Origin: Pseudomonadota bacterium
Lineage (GTDB): Bacteria > Pseudomonadota > Alphaproteobacteria > Acetobacterales > Acetobacteraceae
NCBI GenBank assembly: GCA_018240405.1
Contig: JAFEFW010000620.1
Coordinates: forward strand, 1 to 64,000
Direction of reading: 5' to 3'
Length of the DNA: 64,000 nt
Shown here: positions 3,440 through 11,905 of the stretch, piece after piece
Layout of the letters: each line of letters starts with the position of its first letter
Numbering within the stretch: the first letter of the stretch is position 1
Translations under genes and position numbers: made by a program
Notes under the pieces: generated by a model
What the model saw: only the letters and a program-made list of their open reading frames with translations
What the model was told of the DNA's origin: nothing
Database searches by the model: none

Positions 3440-4381
3440 ATGATCCCCATCCTGATCGACTGCGACCCCGGCATCGACGATGCGGTCGCCCTCATGCTCG
3501 CTGCCAGTGCGCCGGACCGGTTCAGGCTGCTCGGCGTGTCGACCGTGTTCGGCAATGTCGGCGCCGCGCAGACGGCGGACAACGCCCGCCGCGTCCTGGC
3601 CTTCTGCGGGCAATCCACGGTCCCCGTCGCGAAAGGCTGCGAGCGGCCCCTGCTGCGACCGGTGCGCGATGCCGCGTTCATCCACGGAACCTCAGGGCTC
3701 GGCTCCGCCCTTTTGCCGGAGCCGGACGGCGCCCTCGACCGACGGCACGGCGTGGACCTGATCCTGGATGAGATCGTCCGCTCCGCCGATCCCGTGACGC
3801 TCGTCACGCTGGGGCCGTTGACCAACGTGGCGCTGGCGATCGTCAAGGAACCCGCGGTCATGGCCCGCCTGCAGCGGATCGTCATCATGGGCGGTGCGGT
3901 GCGGGAACTCGGCAATATGCCAAGCACGGCGGGGTTCAACCTGTATGCCGATCCGCATGCCGCCGAGATCGTGTTTCGCTCCGGCCTGCCGCTGGTGCAG
4001 ATGACGATCGATGCCACCCACCATGTCAGAGCCAGCCGCGACCACCTGGCAGCGCTGCGAACCGTGGGCAACCGCCACGCGGAGCTGGCGGCATCGCTGT
4101 TCGACGATTTCGCTACGGACGGGGCGCCCGAACCGGACTCGCCGGTGAATGGCTGCATGCATGATCCGTGCTGTATCGCCTACCTGCTGGACCCCACCAT
4201 TGCGCGCGGACGCGAGGCCTATGTGCAGGTCGAGACCGCCAGCGAGGTCTCAATGGGCCGCTCCGTCATCGATTGGTGGGGACGGTCCGGCCAGCCCGCC
4301 AACGCGTTCGTCATCAATGCCATAGACGGTGACGCGTTCTTCGCGCTGCTACGCCGGCAGCTGGCGAAGTTGCCGGCGTAG
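3440..4381 (+). CDS. Nucleoside hydrolase (inosine-uridine preferring family)
   Basis: A 313-residue cytosolic enzyme of the calcium-dependent nucleoside N-ribohydrolase family, which releases the base from ribonucleosides in salvage. The N-terminal signature DCDPGIDDA (residues 7-15) supplies the metal-binding aspartates; VIIMGGAVRELGN and FNLYADPHAAEIVF are the usual mid-protein motifs, and MHDPCCIAYLLDP carries the late histidine/aspartate pair near the active site. Length is normal for the family. Specificity (purine, pyrimidine or nonspecific) cannot be read. It lies 56 bp after the isocitrate dehydrogenase gene and is followed by 211 bp of AT-rich DNA with its own promoter-like element for the next gene. 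Confidence 0.88.
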   Translation: MIPILIDCDPGIDDAVALMLAASAPDRFRLLGVSTVFGNVGAAQTADNARRVLAFCGQSTVPVAKGCERPLLRPVRDAAFIHGTSGLGSALLPEPDGALDRRHGVDLILDEIVRSADPVTLVTLGPLTNVALAIVKEPAVMARLQRIVIMGGAVRELGNMPSTAGFNLYADPHAAEIVFRSGLPLVQMTIDATHHVRASRDHLAALRTVGNRHAELAASLFDDFATDGAPEPDSPVNGCMHDPCCIAYLLDPTIARGREAYVQVETASEVSMGRSVIDWWGRSGQPANAFVINAIDGDAFFALLRRQLAKLPA

Positions 4382-4532
4382 CAGGGCGTGGCAGCCTCTG
4401 CGCTCGATTTGCCGCGCCAGTTTCTCATCCGGCGCCAGCTACCCGGCGTTTGCAGGCCGAGCGAAATGATCGCAACAAATAAATTTCACAAAATTACAGA
4501 ATTGTGTCCGTAGTATAACGTCCGCGCTGGAT

Positions 4533-4562
4533 TTGACAGCAAGTTGTTCTTGTGTCGATATT
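4533..4562 (+). promoter_or_regulatory. Putative housekeeping (-35/-10) promoter for the PEP-CTERM genes
   Basis: TTGACA at 4533-4538 matches the -35 consensus exactly. After an 18-bp spacer, GATATT at 4557-4562 is a 4/6 match to the -10 consensus. It lies in an AT-rich stretch unlike the surrounding DNA. The predicted start near 4569 would leave a ~24-nt leader to the ATG at 4593 and rules out the longer frame beginning at 4533. Inference only. Confidence 0.45.
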
Positions 4563-4592
4563 TTATGGATCTGTAAAAGAGCGGCCACTCGG

Positions 4593-5699
4593 ATGTCACA
4601 GTTCAGGACTGCTGGCGGCATAGTGTCTTTGACGGCGGCTTTACTGGCCGGCACTTGTCTTGGCGCCGGTGAGGCGGCGGCCTATCCAAGTTGTACGCCG
4701 TCAAGCGGTGGGACACAGGGCGTCTACACAACACCGGGTGGTATCACTGCCTGTATTGTAGCCGCAACGGGTACCTATGAGCTCACAGTGACCGGCGGAG
4801 GTGGCGGTTCCGCCGTTGGAGCCGGCAGTGTTCCCGGTGGCGCCGGCGCCGGGGTCGATGTCACACTCCAGCTCCAGCAAAACACGGTGTTGGGCTTGTA
4901 TGTTGGCGGCGCCGGTGGCAACGCCTCAGCCTATGGTGGTGCCGGCGGCGGCGGCGCAAGTTTCGTCCTCTACGCCGGCCTGTTCGGAGGGACGACCCCA
5001 ATCCCACTGGTCATCGCCGGCGGCGGTGGCGGGTCCGCGTCGAACGGCGGTACATACGGTGGCGATGGGCTCGCGCCCGGCGCCACTCAGGGCGGTGGTG
5101 GCGGCGGTCAGACGCGAGGCGCCGGCGGCACCAATGGAAATGGTGGGACGCCGGGCACCGATGAATATGGCGGCGCCGGCGGCGCCGGCTACTTTACCGG
5201 CGGCAGTCCCAGCGCACATGCCGGTGGCGGGGACAGTCTGCATGGCGGGAACCCTCTGGGTGGGGCCGGGGGCGCCTATGCCGGGTCCGGTGGTCTCGGG
5301 GGTGGTGGCGGCGGTGGCGGTGGCGCGCTCAGCACGTTTGGCACACCCGCCGCGGGCGGTGGCGGCGGCGGTTATGACGGCGGCGGCGGTGGCGGCTACT
5401 ACATACTGGGTTATTCCGGCGGTGGTGGTGGCGGAACGTCGTTTGTGTGCGGCGCCGGCGAGTGTCCATTCATTGCGGGGTATTCGTCCGTCACCACCGG
5501 TGCTGCCGGCCAGAACGGCAGTATCGATATCTCTCTGATCGCCGGTGGAATTGCCGTGCCTGAACCGCCCGCCCTGGCTGTTGTAAGCCTCGCGACGCTC
5601 TGGCTGTTGCTGGCCCGTGCGATACGCCAGCGATCACCGCGACGGAACCGATCTGACCGGCAGGCTGCTCTGGCGTGGGAAGCGGAGTGCCAATCATGA
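4593..5699 (+). CDS. Secreted glycine-rich PEP-CTERM protein with ALK/LTK-type glycine-rich domain
   Basis: A 368-residue protein. Residues ~1-30 form a Sec signal peptide ending near GEAAA. The body is very glycine-rich but ordered: CIVAATGTYELTVTGGGGG, then GGGASFVLYAG, IPLVIAGGGGGSA, long GGAGG runs, YDGGGGGGYYI, and SFV near the end. The C-terminus is VPEPP, a hydrophobic helix, then ARAIRQR: a PEP-CTERM sorting signal, which in other bacteria is cut by an exosortase. No exosortase is visible here. The motif order resembles the glycine-rich domain of ALK/LTK receptors (inference). ATG 4593 is chosen because the signal peptide follows directly and the -35 box overlaps the longer frame. The stop overlaps the next start (ATGA), so translation is probably coupled. 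Role unknown, probably envelope or matrix. Confidence 0.8.
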   Translation: MSQFRTAGGIVSLTAALLAGTCLGAGEAAAYPSCTPSSGGTQGVYTTPGGITACIVAATGTYELTVTGGGGGSAVGAGSVPGGAGAGVDVTLQLQQNTVLGLYVGGAGGNASAYGGAGGGGASFVLYAGLFGGTTPIPLVIAGGGGGSASNGGTYGGDGLAPGATQGGGGGGQTRGAGGTNGNGGTPGTDEYGGAGGAGYFTGGSPSAHAGGGDSLHGGNPLGGAGGAYAGSGGLGGGGGGGGGALSTFGTPAAGGGGGGYDGGGGGGYYILGYSGGGGGGTSFVCGAGECPFIAGYSSVTTGAAGQNGSIDISLIAGGIAVPEPPALAVVSLATLWLLLARAIRQRSPRRNRSDRQAALAWEAECQS

Positions 5700-7741
5700 T
5701 GCGGACGGTGCGCCGGTTGGCGATTGCGTGCTTCGTCACCGCGATCCTGATCGCCATTGCCTGCACGCAAGCCGCCGCAACGCCCTTGCCTTGCCGCCCC
5801 GCTTTCATCCCGTACACCTATTCCGGCGCAATGGAGCAGTGCCTCATCGAGGGCAATGGCAACTATACGTTGACCGCGATCGGCGGAAACGGCGGCAGCA
5901 CGCCGTATGGACGCAATCCCGGCAGCGGGGCGCTGGTGCAGGCGGTGTTCAGCCTGACCGCCGGGACAGAGCTGGTGATCCTGGTTGGTGGCGCAGGCGG
6001 ACAAGGCAGCGAGCACATCTCGGGTAATCAGCCATCCGGCGGCGGTGGCGGAACCTTTGTCGCCATCAGGACGTCGCCGTTCACTTTGCAGCCGTTGATC
6101 GTGGCGGGTGGTGGTGGCGGGGCCTCACCTTCCTACGATGGCGGTCCCGGATTGGGCATCGGCACGGGCGGCGGCGCCGGCACCGGGACGGGTAACGGTG
6201 GTGCCGGCGGTACGGGCGGCCAGGGCGGGTTTGTCGGCAGTGACTCGGGCGGCGGTGCCGGCCCGGGCGGTGGCGGCTACAACGGCGATGGCGGCGATGC
6301 CGCCAATGGCAGTGGCGGACTGTCCTTTCTGGACGGCGGTGCTGGTGGCACCGGCCCGATCGCGGCGCCGGGCGGCTTTGGCGGCGGCGGCGCCAGCGGC
6401 TGCTGCACGAATGGCGGCGCCGGAGGCGGTGGCGGCGGCTACAGCGGCGGTGGGGGCGGCGGCGTGAATGCGCTGCCGATCGAGCACGGCGGCGGCGGTG
6501 GCGGCGACTCCTATGTCAATACGGATTACCTGGTGGACCTGCTCAGTGTGGTCTCCGGCTATGATCATCCCGGCGTCCTGAACGGCGCCGGCCAACTGAC
6601 GATCGGATTTCCTGCCAGCGTTGCAGTCCCGGAGCCGCGGACCTGGGTGCTACTGGCGTTCAGCGGGGCTGGCCTGTTGCTGCTGCGGCGCCGCGCCGGG
6701 CTGTGCGTGCGAATTGCCGCCGGGCTAGCCGGACTGACCATACCGGGCCTGGCCCATGCAGGATCCTGCCTCGGAAGCTTCGGGTCTACCGGAGCCTTGG
6801 TGCTGTGCACGGTTCCGTCGGCCGGAACCTACCAGTTCACTGTCGCCGGCGCGCAAGGCGGCACGTCCCGTTCGCAATATGTGAACTTTGGCGGCAACGG
6901 GGCCATCATTGATGTGGCGTATCAGTTGCCGGCTGGCCAGCAGCTTTGGTTACTGGTGGGCCAGGCCGGAGCTGATAGTACAACCAGCGGCGCTGGCGGT
7001 GGCGGCGGAAGCTTTGTCATCGGCTATCCGTCCTACACACCCTTGGTGATTGCCGGCGGCGGTGGCGGCGCGTCCGACAGTATTCAGAATCCGTTTCCGA
7101 GCCAGGGGCTTGGACCGGAGCTCATGAACGGCGTGACCGGCGGCGCGCCAGGCATTGGAATGAACGCCGGCGCGGGCGGGCAGCAGGGCTATGGGGGCGC
7201 GGCTGGAACCAATCTCTTTGAGGTGGGTGCCGGCGGCGGCGGATTTATCGGCAATGGTGGAAGTTTCAGCTCATCCGCCAGTGATGCGCAGGGCGGGGGC
7301 AGCTTTGTCAACGGCGGCAGCGGCGGTGCGGGTGCTGCCGACGGCGGCGGCGCTGGAGGCTTCGGGGGCGGTGGCGGTGGCGGCTTTGATGGTGGCGGAG
7401 GAGGCGGCGGCGGTTACAGCGGCGGTGGAGGTGGCGGCTACGACTTTTACCTTGGCGCTGACGGCGGCGGCGGTGGCGGCGATTCCTGGGTGATGCCGGG
7501 ATACCTGTCGCTATCCATCCCAAGCAGCGGCAACAGCGGCGACGGGTCCATCACCATATCGCTGCTCGAGGCCGTTCTGATACCGGAACCGCCCGCGTGG
7601 TTGCTCCTCATGCCGTCGGGGATCATCGGTATCGGTCTGCTCCATATGCGGCGGGCGCGCAAAGCGGCGGTGGCCGCTTCCGGCACCAGTACCAGCGCCC
7701 TGTGCCGCGCTACCCGTCCGGATGGCGGCGCAGGCCGCTGA
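5696..7741 (+). CDS. Double PEP-CTERM protein: in-frame fusion of two glycine-rich secreted modules
   Basis: A 681-residue protein. The start ATG overlaps the previous stop, with GGAG 9 bases upstream. Module 1: signal peptide (~1-28), glycine-rich domain with GGGGTFVAIRT and LIVAGGGGGASP, then VPEPRTW plus a hydrophobic helix and LLRRRAG (nt ~6626-6700), a complete PEP-CTERM signal. Directly after, without a stop, comes a second hydrophobic signal-like segment (RIAAGLAGLTIPGLAHA), a second glycine-rich domain (FTVAGAQGG, GGGGGSFVIG, PLVIAGGGGG, YSGGGGGGYDF) and a second PEP-CTERM (IPEPPAW, helix, RRARK). This looks like two ancestral neighbouring genes joined by loss of a stop. An in-frame GTG at 6707 could start the second module separately. 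Function unknown; a surface or matrix role is inferred. Confidence 0.78.
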   Translation: MMRTVRRLAIACFVTAILIAIACTQAAATPLPCRPAFIPYTYSGAMEQCLIEGNGNYTLTAIGGNGGSTPYGRNPGSGALVQAVFSLTAGTELVILVGGAGGQGSEHISGNQPSGGGGGTFVAIRTSPFTLQPLIVAGGGGGASPSYDGGPGLGIGTGGGAGTGTGNGGAGGTGGQGGFVGSDSGGGAGPGGGGYNGDGGDAANGSGGLSFLDGGAGGTGPIAAPGGFGGGGASGCCTNGGAGGGGGGYSGGGGGGVNALPIEHGGGGGGDSYVNTDYLVDLLSVVSGYDHPGVLNGAGQLTIGFPASVAVPEPRTWVLLAFSGAGLLLLRRRAGLCVRIAAGLAGLTIPGLAHAGSCLGSFGSTGALVLCTVPSAGTYQFTVAGAQGGTSRSQYVNFGGNGAIIDVAYQLPAGQQLWLLVGQAGADSTTSGAGGGGGSFVIGYPSYTPLVIAGGGGGASDSIQNPFPSQGLGPELMNGVTGGAPGIGMNAGAGGQQGYGGAAGTNLFEVGAGGGGFIGNGGSFSSSASDAQGGGSFVNGGSGGAGAADGGGAGGFGGGGGGGFDGGGGGGGGYSGGGGGGYDFYLGADGGGGGGDSWVMPGYLSLSIPSSGNSGDGSITISLLEAVLIPEPPAWLLLMPSGIIGIGLLHMRRARKAAVAASGTSTSALCRATRPDGGAGR

Positions 7742-7863: not shown

Positions 7864-8721
7864 TTACCGCGCCAGCTTCTCGTCCAGCGCCAGGTACTCC
7901 GCGTTCCGCAGTGCCGTGCCGAGTTCCGCCGGGCTGGCCATCGGCGCACGCTGGCCGCTTTTCAGCCCGGCCAGCGCAGCGCGCACTGCCAGCACGGTCG
8001 AGGCCAGGATTTCCTGCGGATAGACCACCATCTTGATGCCGATGCCAGACAGCACGTCGTCGCCCGGCTTGAAGTGCTTGCCGCCAGGATTGGTCACCGC
8101 GATCGACGGCCTGCCCTGGCAGGCGGCGACGGCAGCGCGCATTTCGTCCTCGGTGGCCGGGGAGTCGAAGAACAGGATGTCGGCGCCCAGCTCCACGAAC
8201 GCTTTCAGCCGCGCGAGAGCCTCATCGAAGCCGCGGGAGGTACGGGCGTCGGTGCGCGCCAGCAGCAGGATGCCTTCCTCCTTCGCCGCGGCGATGGCGG
8301 CACGCAGGCGCAGGATCGCCTCATCGCGCTCGATCACCAGCTTGGCGTTGTTCTGGCCGAGGGGACGCGGCCAGGCCTTGTCCTCGATGAGGACGGCCGC
8401 GGCGCCGGCACGGGCGTAGCCGCGGATGGTCTTCTGCACGCTGATGGCGTTGCCGTAGCCGGTGTCGCCGTCGGCCAGCCAGCACACGTTGGGTGCGGTG
8501 GTCACCATCTGCGACACGGCGTCCAGCATGTCGGGGTAGGTCAACTGGTCCACGTCCGGCCAGGCCAGGCGCATCGCCGAGATCGACGACCCCGAGGCAA
8601 AGCCGATCTTGAAGCCGGCCTCCTCAACGAGGCGGGCCGCAAGACCGTCGCCGCAGCCGGGGACGACCTGGATGCCGGGTTGGGCGAGCACTGCCTTCAT
8701 GGCTTCGGCCTGTGGTCTCAT
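7864..8721 (-). CDS. Isocitrate lyase/PEP mutase-family enzyme (oxaloacetate decarboxylase-like)
   Basis: A 285-residue member of the PEP mutase/isocitrate lyase superfamily: ADGDTGYGN carries the Mg-binding aspartates, GAAAVLIEDKAWPRP follows where the active-site loop sits, and LLARTDAR and ADILFFDSP are family motifs. The classical KKCGH loop of isocitrate lyase and methylisocitrate lyase is absent (EDKAWPRPLGQNN instead), so a lyase acting on (methyl)isocitrate is unlikely. Members with other loops include oxaloacetate decarboxylases and C-C or C-P lyases; the substrate is open. ATG 8721 has GGGAACGTC just upstream. It lies downstream of hpf after 395 bp, in the place where ptsN is often found. 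Confidence 0.75.
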   Translation of the reverse strand: MRPQAEAMKAVLAQPGIQVVPGCGDGLAARLVEEAGFKIGFASGSSISAMRLAWPDVDQLTYPDMLDAVSQMVTTAPNVCWLADGDTGYGNAISVQKTIRGYARAGAAAVLIEDKAWPRPLGQNNAKLVIERDEAILRLRAAIAAAKEEGILLLARTDARTSRGFDEALARLKAFVELGADILFFDSPATEDEMRAAVAACQGRPSIAVTNPGGKHFKPGDDVLSGIGIKMVVYPQEILASTVLAVRAALAGLKSGQRAPMASPAELGTALRNAEYLALDEKLAR

Positions 8722-9116: not shown

Positions 9117-9707
9117 TTAATCGCCCGGATCGATCCAGCCGATATGCCCATCCGGCCGGCGATAGACCACGTTCAGCACGCCCGAGGTGCTGTTGCGGAA
9201 CATCATCACCACCTGATCGGCGAGGTCCATGCGCATCACCGCCTCGCCCACTGTCAGCGAGGCGATCTCGGTCTGCGTCTCGGCGACCACCGTCGCGTAG
9301 GCCTCGGCCAATGTACGGGTTTCTGGCTCTGCCGCCTCGTGCTCCGGGTGCTCTTCCTCACGCAGGATGATCTGCCGAGCCTTTTCGGGGCGGGCCCGGT
9401 GCGCCATATCGCGGGCGTGATCGTTCACGCGGCGGCGATAACGGCGCAGGCGCTTGGCGATGTGCTCCGCTGCGTCATCGAAGGCGGCATTGGCGTCGGC
9501 CGCTTCGCCTTCACCCCGCAGTTGCAAGCCGCGGCCCGCGTGCACATTGATGTCGCACGTAAAGAAGCTCCGCGCCCGGCTGAAGGTCACATGCGCCTCG
9601 AGCGCGTGGTCGAAATACTTCGAGGAGATCGCCTCCAACTGGGTGGAAACCCGCGTCCGTAACGCGTCCGACAACTCGACCTGTTTGCCGGAGACCGTGA
9701 TCTGCAT
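9117..9707 (-). CDS. hpf: Ribosome hibernation promoting factor, long form
   Basis: A 196-residue long-form HPF. Residues 1-~105 are the ribosome-binding domain (MQITVSGKQVELSDALRTRV at the start, basic RRYRRRVNDH at its end). A charged linker follows, and ~150-196 are the dimerisation domain (VGEAVMRMDLADQVVMMF, then GHIGWIDPG). Long HPFs bind the 30S decoding region and join 70S ribosomes into inactive 100S dimers in stationary phase. The start at 9707 is chosen because AGGAGAGAGGT precedes it and the family begins at this methionine; upstream in-frame codons are dispensable. It follows rpoN by 170 bp, the classical rpoN-hpf order, but ptsN, usual as third gene, is missing. Confidence 0.93.
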   Translation of the reverse strand: MQITVSGKQVELSDALRTRVSTQLEAISSKYFDHALEAHVTFSRARSFFTCDINVHAGRGLQLRGEGEAADANAAFDDAAEHIAKRLRRYRRRVNDHARDMAHRARPEKARQIILREEEHPEHEAAEPETRTLAEAYATVVAETQTEIASLTVGEAVMRMDLADQVVMMFRNSTSGVLNVVYRRPDGHIGWIDPGD

Positions 9708-9877
9708 ACCTCTCTCCTGACCGTTCAGCGGGCCGCTTTTGGGGCGGTCCCTCGCCACGCGGCCCGCAGCTATTTGGGCACCCCTGTTACGTGGTGTCCA
9801 CTAGGATATTCCCGTAGTATGCACGGTGCCGCAAACCTGGGTGACAGGGTAGCAGGTCAATTGCGGATGCGCGAACG

Positions 9878-11380
9878 TCAGCCCGCGCCAGCCTTATCCC
9901 GGCGGCGCTGCACCGAGTTCGGAATGCGCATGGCCTCCCGGTATTTGGCGACTGTTCTACGCGCGATATCAACGCCTTCCTTGCGCAGGACGGTGACGAT
10001 GGAATCGTCCGAGAGGATGTCGTTCGGTGGTTCGCCATCGATCATCGTGCGGATGCGGTGGCGCACGGCCTCTGCGCTGTGCGCATCGCCGCCATCCGTG
10101 CCCTGTATGGCGGTGGTGAAGAAGTATTTCAGCTCAAAGGTGCCGCGCGGGGTGGCAATGTACTTGTTGGCGGTGACCCGGCTGACGGTGCTTTCGTGCA
10201 GCTCCACCGCCTCGGCGATGTCGCGTAGGATCAGCGGGCGCAGGAACGCCACACCTTCGCGCAGAAACCCTTCCTGCTGGCGGATGATTTCGGCGGCGAC
10301 CTTCAGGATGGTCTGCGCCCGCTGCTGCAGCGAACGCACCAGCCAGTTGGCGTTGGCCAGCCGCTCCGTCAGGAAGACCTTGTCCTCCTTGCGCGCATTC
10401 GGCGCGACCTTGGCGTAGAACCGCTCATTCACCAGCACACGCGGCATGGTGTCAGGGTTCAATTCGATCAGCCAGGATCCGTCGGGTGCCTGGCGCATCA
10501 GCAGGTCCGGCACCACCGGCGGCGCAGGGTTGATATCGTAGGTCGCTGCCGGCTTCGGATCGAGCGCGCGGATCTCGGCAATCATCTCCGCCATGTCTTC
10601 GGCATCGACGCCGCAGATCGTCATCAACCGCTTGGTGTCGCGCTTGGCCAGCAGGTCCAGGTTGTCCAGCAGCGCCTGCATTGCCGGGTCCAGCCGGTTG
10701 CGGTCCGCCAACTGCACGGCGAGGCATTCCTTCAGGTCGCGGGCAAACAGGCCGACCGGGTCGAAGCGCATCATCCGTGTACGAACGGCTTCGATCCGCT
10801 CCAGCGGCAGGTTCATCGCCTGGGCGATGGCCGCAGGATCAGCGGTCAGGCGGCCGGCGGGGCAGAGCAGGGCGATCAGGTGTGCGCCGACGATGCGGTC
10901 GACCGGGTCGTCGAAGGTCAGGCGCAACTGCTCACCCAGATGATCGCGCAGCGGCGGCAGCGCATCAGCAAAATCGTCGATGCCACGGTCGTCGCTTTCG
11001 AAGCTATGCGAACCGCCGCTGCCTTCCATCCGTCCCGGCAGCGGGGCACCGTCCGCGGCGCCGCCGGCATCGAAGGTGTTGCCGAGGTCGGCATCGAGCG
11101 GTGTAGAGGCTTCGCTCGGCAGGCGGTCGGCAGCAACCGCCTCGGCCGTGTCCATCGGGCGTTCCGTGCGCGGCTCGATCTGGTCGAGCGCGGCCCGTTC
11201 AGCGGGCGGTGCGTCGGAGGTCTCGTCGCGTTCCAGCAGCGGATTGCGTTCCAGCTCCTCCTCGACGAAGGAGGCGACTTCCATATTGGAGTATTGCAGC
11301 AGCTTGATCGCCTGACGCAGCTGCGGCGTCATGACAAGCGTCTGGCTTTGGCGTAGGTCGAGGCGTGGAGCAATCGCCAT
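9878..11380 (-). CDS. rpoN: RNA polymerase sigma-54 factor
   Basis: A 500-residue RpoN. Region I is LRQSQTLVMTPQLRQAIKLL, followed by the acidic region II, the core-binding domain, the HTH and, near the C-terminus, the RpoN box ARRTVAKYRE that reads the -24 element. Sigma-54 transcribes only with an AAA+ activator; one such activator and a matching promoter occur at 57.9-59.9 kb. ATG 11380 fits the family start (MAIAPRLDLRQ), though no strong ribosome site is visible. In most alphaproteobacteria rpoN follows lptB directly. Here lptB, on the same strand, ends at 34325, so about 23 kb separate the two. Confidence 0.95.
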   Translation of the reverse strand: MAIAPRLDLRQSQTLVMTPQLRQAIKLLQYSNMEVASFVEEELERNPLLERDETSDAPPAERAALDQIEPRTERPMDTAEAVAADRLPSEASTPLDADLGNTFDAGGAADGAPLPGRMEGSGGSHSFESDDRGIDDFADALPPLRDHLGEQLRLTFDDPVDRIVGAHLIALLCPAGRLTADPAAIAQAMNLPLERIEAVRTRMMRFDPVGLFARDLKECLAVQLADRNRLDPAMQALLDNLDLLAKRDTKRLMTICGVDAEDMAEMIAEIRALDPKPAATYDINPAPPVVPDLLMRQAPDGSWLIELNPDTMPRVLVNERFYAKVAPNARKEDKVFLTERLANANWLVRSLQQRAQTILKVAAEIIRQQEGFLREGVAFLRPLILRDIAEAVELHESTVSRVTANKYIATPRGTFELKYFFTTAIQGTDGGDAHSAEAVRHRIRTMIDGEPPNDILSDDSIVTVLRKEGVDIARRTVAKYREAMRIPNSVQRRRDKAGAG

Positions 11381-11905
11381 GCCAACGCGAATATCGACAC
11401 CGGTCGGCGGGGTCAATTGTTTTACGGCATGATACGAAATTTTCTATGCAAAAACCGTGCTAGAGTTGTATGCGGGCGCCTGATATCGCCCCTGGCGACG
11501 TCCCAAACCTTGTCGGCCTGGGGAAACTAGCACCCAGGGGCCGTCGCCCGGCCGGGTCTCGAAACCGTGGACGCGGCACTCGCCTCAGGCCTGTTGTTGC
11601 GTGGCGGAAGCTGATCAGGACGGCAGCAGCGCCATTGAAGGCGTGCGCTGCACGCCGGCCTGACACCCGCGCACGCAGCGCCATCGCCATCATCCCGCCG
11701 GTGTCGCTAAGCTTACCGTATACTGGATGCGCGCGTGTTGGGCGCGAGCCAGGCACATATGCCCGCTGAGCGTGCGCCGTGCCAGCAGCGCGGCCGGCGC
11801 TGCCGCTCAGGTCTCGATGGCGAACCCGCCGCTCAGGTCGATCACTCGTCCTGGCGTCCCGCGCGTGGAGTGATCCAATGTGCGTGCCGGCGGGCCGACA
11901 GGCGC
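11381..11905. other. Intergenic region upstream of rpoN
   Basis: 525 bp with no supportable gene; the open frames on both strands are arginine/proline-rich shadows without ribosome sites. An AT-rich stretch at ~11415-11470 is the likely rpoN promoter region. The remaining ~430 bp carry no recognisable repeat, tRNA or transposon end. This is the right-hand (rpoN) junction of the accessory block. Confidence 0.5.

Follow-up and report, generated by a model that had tools for sequence, protein, structure and literature searches.

ALK/LTK-related glycine-rich modules in predicted exosortase substrates of an Acetobacteraceae bacterium, with two modules and two sorting signals in one gene

Two adjoining genes of an Acetobacteraceae bacterium carry glycine-rich modules in an order like that of the animal receptors ALK and LTK, raising the question of whether this order reflects homology or glycine content, and of what such modules would do on proteins with exosortase sorting signals. 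The genes lie in a 64,000-nucleotide stretch of DNA (assembly GCA_018240405.1, contig JAFEFW010000620.1, positions 1 to 64,000), referred to here as the window. Gene 1 (4593..5699, + strand; ATG start, 368 amino acids) encodes a signal peptide, one ALK/LTK-like glycine-rich module, and a PEP-CTERM signal. Gene 2 (5696..7741, + strand; ATG start, 681 amino acids), with a start that overlaps the gene 1 stop codon (ATGATG), encodes two complete units in a single reading frame.

Relationship of the modules to the ALK/LTK domain

Module bounds were set from the predicted mature start to just short of the PEP motif, placing module 1 at 4683..5549 in gene 1 and modules 2 and 3 at 5780..6619 and 6761..7576 in gene 2 (all + strand). 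The corresponding profile domains cover residues 42-316 of the gene 1 product (E 7e-46) and residues 37-307 and 359-625 of the gene 2 product. When aligned, the three modules share one motif order, [TN]YxxT[VA]xGxxGG, [LI]xVGxAG, GGGG[AG][ST]FV, PL[VI][VI]AGGGGG, GG[FL]GGGG, GGGY[SD]GGGG, and GGG[TD]S[FYW]V, in agreement with a preliminary description of the locus, which had placed one such module in gene 1 and two in gene 2. Glycine makes up 38.4%, 35.0%, and 34.2% of modules 1, 2, and 3, respectively. In the alignment, module 3 shares 45% identity with module 2 and 46% with module 1, and the duplication is therefore not recent.

A family profile was built from 14 aligned modules (31.6-40.5% glycine), comprising the three window modules and 11 from loci L004 and L006-L015. 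Omitted from the alignment were L016 and L017, which contain stops; L018, an intact second copy in genome G026 with a Hint tail; L020, which a stop interrupts; and second pieces of included genes (L019, L021, and L022). This profile scored its own modules at 140.9-211.5 bits, values that are high by construction, while the 14 reversed modules scored at most -16.4 bits, 2,800 residue shuffles at most -14.7 bits, and 2,800 shuffles that kept 10-residue blocks at most 36.8 bits. The fair test of the order is a profile that excludes the window modules, and a profile built in this way scored modules 3, 2, and 1 at 151.9, 130.0, and 81.5 bits. The motif order is far beyond chance.

Each window module also contains a cysteine pair, with one cysteine near the start and one just before the TY strand (CIV, CLI, and CTV; 4683-4760, 5780-5850, and 6761-6815). 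The same pair is present in L010, and two cysteines in slightly shifted positions are present in L007 and L008. A disulfide between the paired cysteines is possible in an exported protein.

The 14-module profile was compared with 177,635 sequences of the PDB. It gave nine matches at E ≤ 10, all of which were LTK, ALK, or worm scd-2 (E 1.1e-19 to 1.9e-13), with scores of 74.5 bits for LTK, 62.4-69.3 for ALK, and 54.0 for scd-2, all above the best block shuffle. A profile of eight reversed modules, in which composition, runs, and conservation are kept, found no ALK-family chain, its sole match being a haemoglobin linker (E 8), whereas the same eight modules read forward found all nine ALK-family chains at E ≤ 4.8e-13 and nothing else at E ≤ 10. 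With the three window modules alone, nine of ten matches belonged to the ALK family (E 8.4e-6 to 9.8e-4), the tenth being an S-layer chain (E 0.46); with the window modules plus one phage module, eight matches were obtained, all ALK/LTK and without scd-2. Even as a single sequence, module 3 found human LTK as its top match in a phmmer search of the PDB (E 4.8e-4), followed among nine matches at E ≤ 10 by an unrelated glucosaminidase chain (E 0.18) and seven ALK sequences (E 0.21-0.39). The best LTK stretch covers residues 4-78 of module 3, the glycine-poorer N-terminal part, outside the glycine runs. The first 75 residues alone matched LTK at E 2.6e-4, followed by five glucosaminidase chains (E 0.026-0.17), a tail-fibre chain (E 0.68), and scd-2 (E 1.7). 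Because the 14-module profile matched only ALK-family chains, the reversed controls failed, and the scores exceeded those of block shuffles, we conclude from these comparisons that the resemblance is homology and not glycine content. The likeness to the animal domain order that had been suggested earlier is thereby borne out at the level of profiles.

The Pfam family model for this domain, PF12810 (ALK_LTK_GRD), gave a divided answer. It matched three of the 14 modules at E ≤ 10 (best 6.4e-5), and two of eight relatives scanned, the permuted genes at L072 (26.6 bits) and L065 (24.9 bits), exceeded the curated cutoff of 24.5 bits, with matches that span only model positions 5-72 and 7-72 of 243. 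A score above the cutoff of the ALK_LTK family model, which the preliminary description had led us to look for, was seen in these relatives and not in the window proteins, for which hmmscan returned no PF12810 match and Pfam overall nothing except weak PEP-CTERM. A genome search with PF12810 found no match in the own genome and none in 249 genomes of the phylum; the control genomes were silent too, so the search is uninformative on absence. PF12810 looks like a poor detector of these bacterial modules.

Compared with animal ALK and LTK (PDB 7nx0, 7lrz, and 7lir; PF12810), profile homology extends across most of the module; it begins in the first beta part, continues into the glycine blocks, and follows an unchanged order. 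In contrast, Pfam found neither an EGF-like domain nor a kinase in either bacterial gene, the bacterial proteins end in a PEP-CTERM tail instead of a receptor stem, and LTK and ALK carry about 27-31 residues between the two aligned parts. As judged by these comparisons, the module is of the ALK/LTK TNF-like/glycine-rich kind, and the proteins are not receptor kinases. Polyglycine helices have been reported in the solved LTK/ALK chains 7NX1 and 7N00, in a 2026 paper that also models PE_PGRS-type polyglycine bundles as polyproline II (PPII) bundles (PMC13243192).

Sorting signals and the proposed role of genes 1 and 2

Each of the three modules is preceded by a signal-peptide-like segment with an AxA end and followed by a PEP motif, a hydrophobic stretch, and basic residues, as identified by eye. 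The signal peptides lie at 4593..4682 in gene 1 (predicted cleavage after GEAAA) and at 5696..5779 in gene 2 (predicted cleavage after TQAAA). The C-terminal PEP-CTERM signal of gene 1 (5556..5618) is weak, at 14.2 bits against the TIGR02595 cutoff of 16. Gene 2 has an internal PEP-CTERM signal (VPEPRTWVLLAFSGAGLLLLRRR, 6626..6694), which at 24.9 bits is the strongest of the three and the only one over the cutoff, a further scan also placing it above cutoff (18.9); its C-terminal PEP-CTERM-like signal (IPEPPAWLLLMPSGIIGIGLLHMRRARK, 7577..7669) was recognized by eye and is absent from the TIGR02595 list to E 10, so it is degenerate. All of these features are on the + strand. The genome has one exosortase match, exosortase A (XrtA; TIGR03109, 285.6 bits, cutoff 208), which adjoins an XrtA-system glycosyltransferase (TIGR03087), and 53 TIGR02595 sites to E 10, of which 42 are above cutoff. 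The exosortase sorting signals that had been read from the sequence at the outset therefore stand, with an internal signal over the cutoff and XrtA in the genome. In their signal peptide, PEP motif, hydrophobic helix, and basic tail, the proteins resemble substrates of the PEP-CTERM/exosortase A (XrtA, EpsH) system.

It is fairly probable that genes 1 and 2 encode exosortase-processed surface or matrix proteins in which the TNF-like/polyglycine module serves as an adhesive head. All three units would consist of a signal peptide, a folded module homologous to that of ALK/LTK, and a PEP-CTERM tail. Sec export would remove the signal peptide, and the module would fold in the periplasm into a beta jelly-roll holding a packed glycine-helix lattice, as homology to the solved ALK/LTK chains suggests. 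Exosortase A, from what is known of XrtA and PEP-CTERM proteins, would then cut at PEP and hand the protein to the outer surface or the exopolysaccharide layer. In the least certain step, the glycine lattice may act as a stiff head, with variable loops that attach to polysaccharide, to other cells, or to another protein. An adhesive role is suggested because the TNF-like and glycine-rich domains of the phage fibre protein Pam3 gp24 have been proposed to bind the host receptor (PMC9608196), because floc formation, unlike biofilm formation, involves a PEP-CTERM protein in another bacterium (PMC9850573), and because the glycine-rich middle of the module is modestly more divergent. In three tandem arrays, this middle is the least conserved part, with 74%, 57%, and 78% identity versus 86%, 60%, and 83% in the first half. 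The divergence is weak support for variable loops, as turnover of low-complexity sequence could produce it too.

The same divergence bears on a different role for the fold. The module could be ALK/LTK-like and yet serve as passive building material of the exopolysaccharide, stiff, protease-resistant, and related to ice or desiccation, with no specific binding. Multiple copies in some genomes and tandem arrays of separate module genes in other genera (L062 with four copies, L063 with three, and L064 with two) are consistent with such a material, while the poor conservation of the glycine-rich middle points weakly the other way and would fit turnover equally. We regard passive material as possible, if rather unlikely.

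Several observations weigh against exosortase-processed adhesive proteins. The adjoining genes, a nucleoside hydrolase gene on one flank (3440-4381, + strand) and a convergent PEP mutase-family gene on the other (7864-8721, - strand), are metabolic and provide no functional hint, and for genes 1 and 2 neither a binding partner nor expression nor a phenotype was found. The window proteins lack a PF12810 match. The PEP-CTERM signal of gene 1 is weak and the terminal one of gene 2 falls outside the TIGR02595 list; moreover, TIGR02595 at E ≤ 10 also matches in 12 of 14 control genomes, above cutoff in two, so sub-cutoff sites mean little. Finally, Haft et al. (PMC1569441) raise the possibility that the very few PEP-CTERM sequences with greatly extended tails do not function, which would apply to the internal signal of gene 2.

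This last point turns on the architecture of gene 2, in which 348 residues lie downstream of the internal PEP-CTERM signal. Among PEP-CTERM proteins, 87% have fewer than 10 residues past the domain (Haft et al., PMC1569441). In the own genome, 40 of the 41 other over-cutoff sites were fetched (C660 was left out), and all 40 end 0-24 residues before the stop; gene 2 differs from these in having one internal signal and one terminal one. Soon after the internal signal, gene 2 encodes RRRAGLCV-RIAAGLAGLTIPGLAHA-GS, a signal-peptide-like segment (6707..6760, + strand) that may start with the GTG at 6707 and was recognized by its charge, its hydrophobic core, and an AxA site. Neither the middle PEP-CTERM signal nor this second signal-peptide-like segment had been included in the preliminary description. 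Since the segment following the internal PEP-CTERM signal resembles a new export signal, gene 2 looks like a fused pair of complete units, which we favour over a dead tail. The internal PEP-CTERM helix and the second signal peptide would then form a membrane hairpin, with possible processing into two surface proteins.

Alternatively, gene 2 could be an assembly or sequencing artefact of two tandem genes, or a decayed, non-functional read-through. It is the sole frame with two full modules among 55 distinct related open reading frames (profile E ≤ 1e-8), a set made up of the fetched loci and the window, including split-gene pieces and a phage protein, rather than every genome of the family. In L062, L063, and L064, each tandem copy is a gene of its own, and the possible GTG start at 6707 also speaks for this reading. 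However, both modules, the internal PEP-CTERM signal, and the second signal-like segment stand in one stop-free frame, and the internal signal scores highest of the three, unlike what decay would leave. An artefact or decay is accordingly unlikely in our view, with perhaps one chance in a few.

Upstream of gene 1 (4382-4592), a sigma-54 site (consensus TGGCACN5TTGCW) was not found with up to two mismatches, and a sigma-70-like pattern is present at 4533-4562 (consensus match only). A published upstream motif pair occurs in 99 of 167 proteobacterial PEP-CTERM genes (PMC1569441 section 7), so the sigma-54 site is not class-defining. Further downstream, a ribosome hibernation factor gene (S30AE; 9117-9758, - strand) stands beside the sigma-54 gene rpoN (9878-11416, - strand), an ordinary arrangement.

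Distribution, phage relatives, and circular permutation

The own genome has five module places, the three in the window and one each on contigs C444 and C620. In the fifth (G000:C620:14960-15529, L045), the profile match ends at position 191 of 253; the GYSGGGGG block is lacking by eye, yet the last strands and an over-cutoff PEP-CTERM signal follow. A search with module 3 matched 13 of 60 genomes at E ≤ 1e-3, including the own genome and also G039 and G040 (E 1.9e-4 and 3.1e-4), which have stops inside the matches. With the profile, and again counting the own genome, the module was found in 11 of 34 genomes of the genus (E ≤ 1e-8) and in 43 of 299 genomes, or 25 of 102 genera, of the family. 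In even samples of the phylum (398 genomes, E ≤ 1e-10) and the class (385 genomes, E ≤ 1e-8), only the own genome matched; scoring took in at most six candidates per genome, so that copies that are thin or diverged may have escaped, and the genomes listed include five (phylum) and four (class) others of the same family without a match. Two scans of genome contigs returned no relatives, perhaps owing to low-complexity filtering and degenerate glycine patterns, whereas the profile search of genomes worked.

Of the 55 related open reading frames, 52 are untruncated; a simple, approximate pattern places a PEP-CTERM-like tail on 42 of the 52. Fusions over Pfam cutoffs join the module to Hint_2 (L034 and L041), SdrD_B (L066), and PATR (L068), all parts of secreted or surface proteins. 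The Hint_2 fusion L034:335-1984 (- strand) contains a partial copy of the first ~34 profile positions before the full module, an apparent internal duplication. In L066:2853-6170 (+ strand), a frame of 1106 amino acids, SdrD_B domains and a long region of repeats come after the module, and in L068:436-3288 (- strand) the module lies near the N terminus of a PATR-repeat protein of 951 amino acids with an autotransporter-like C-terminal end by eye.

The module is also present in phage. A viral contig (L023:1171-2685) encodes, among tail-fibre genes, a protein with the same module at its C terminus. Ahead of the module is a MAM-like match below cutoff (17.0 bits, cutoff 26.4); phmmer of the N-terminal part matched no MAM structure, leaving one sub-cutoff Pfam match for the MAM reading. 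Animal ALK likewise has MAM domains in an N-terminal position (PMC10605310). Of the 14 modules, 13 match PHROG 22713, a group of unknown function. In scans of viral contigs, the 14-row alignment found at least one locus, L023 as query found only identical copies, and module 2 found no locus. In tblastn searches, module 3 had no match at E ≤ 1e-3 in 50,697 phage records, and none was obtained in plasmids, results that are weakened by the low-complexity filter. A glycine-rich lattice is shared with the Pam3 gp24 tail fibre and with gp38, the adhesin tip of Salmonella phage S16. In Pam3 gp24 the lattice is accompanied by a TNF-like domain, and the authors of that work liken both domains to Caenorhabditis elegans ALK (PMC9608196). 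Unlike the bacterial proteins, gp24 is a trimeric fibre made with a chaperone, and the PDB matches of the 14- and 8-module profiles at E ≤ 10 included no phage fibre. Capture of the bacterial modules from the tips of phage tail fibres, with a role as decoys or receptors when phage and host meet, is improbable: the L023 protein and the PHROG 22713 matches speak for it, and the empty tblastn search, for what it is worth under the filter, and the ordinary metabolic genes around genes 1 and 2 speak against it.

Among the 55 related open reading frames, three genes carry the module in permuted form, L065:1834-2751, L072:519-1481, and L073:549-1478 (all - strand). They come from two genomes of one genus and are intact, and in each the profile aligns over positions 88-249/250 and then over 3/4-87/88 in a single open frame, flanked by a signal-peptide-like start (by eye) and a PEP-CTERM signal above the Pfam cutoff. 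The cut, at profile position 87/88, separates GGGGGSFV from PLVIAGGGGG. L065 also holds a fourth copy, which extends over two frames. Natural circular permutation is expected in a compact domain with neighbouring ends, and its usual route is tandem duplication. Tandem duplication is seen in this family and may have been the route here. Because the halves are swapped in three intact genes, the permutation argues for a compact fold and would be hard to square with a disordered linker.

The weakest explanation, that these are low-complexity, disordered glycine-rich secreted proteins resembling ALK/LTK by composition alone, was rejected on the reversed and shuffled controls and is very improbable: it would fit the glycine content of the 14 modules and the lack of Pfam matches other than weak PEP-CTERM in the window proteins, but those controls fail, the best single-sequence LTK match lies outside the glycine runs, three genes are permuted at one conserved point, and the profile's silence outside the own genome in the phylum and class samples indicates, at up to six candidates per genome, that it is not triggered by just any glycine-rich protein.

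Implications for the family and for the animal module

To our knowledge, the origin of the ALK/LTK glycine-rich module is unclear. A set of 5.39 million open-access papers, which leaves most subscription papers outside the search, contained nothing joining exosortase and anaplastic lymphoma kinase, and, among the matches listed, nothing on circular permutation with ALK, LTK, or polyglycine. For PEP-CTERM together with glycine-rich proteins, only work on GlyGly-CTERM/rhombosortase turned up, and for PF12810 only fungal work, which states that the function of the domain is not known. What seems to be new is a bacterial form sorted by exosortase, along with its variants in tandem or permuted arrangement and the gene that carries two signals.

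Tentatively, the ligand-binding module of animal ALK/LTK might be part of an older, mobile prokaryotic and phage surface-binding module, which in this family has been tandem-duplicated, fused, permuted, and placed on several export systems, with gene 2 as a natural polyprotein giving rise to two exosortase substrates. An exported bacterial module that occurs in single, tandem, and permuted form offers a simple system for the folding and binding of a protein that is one-third glycine, and a way into the origin of the animal ALK/LTK module. The internal sorting signal of gene 2 would offer a direct test of mid-chain exosortase action.

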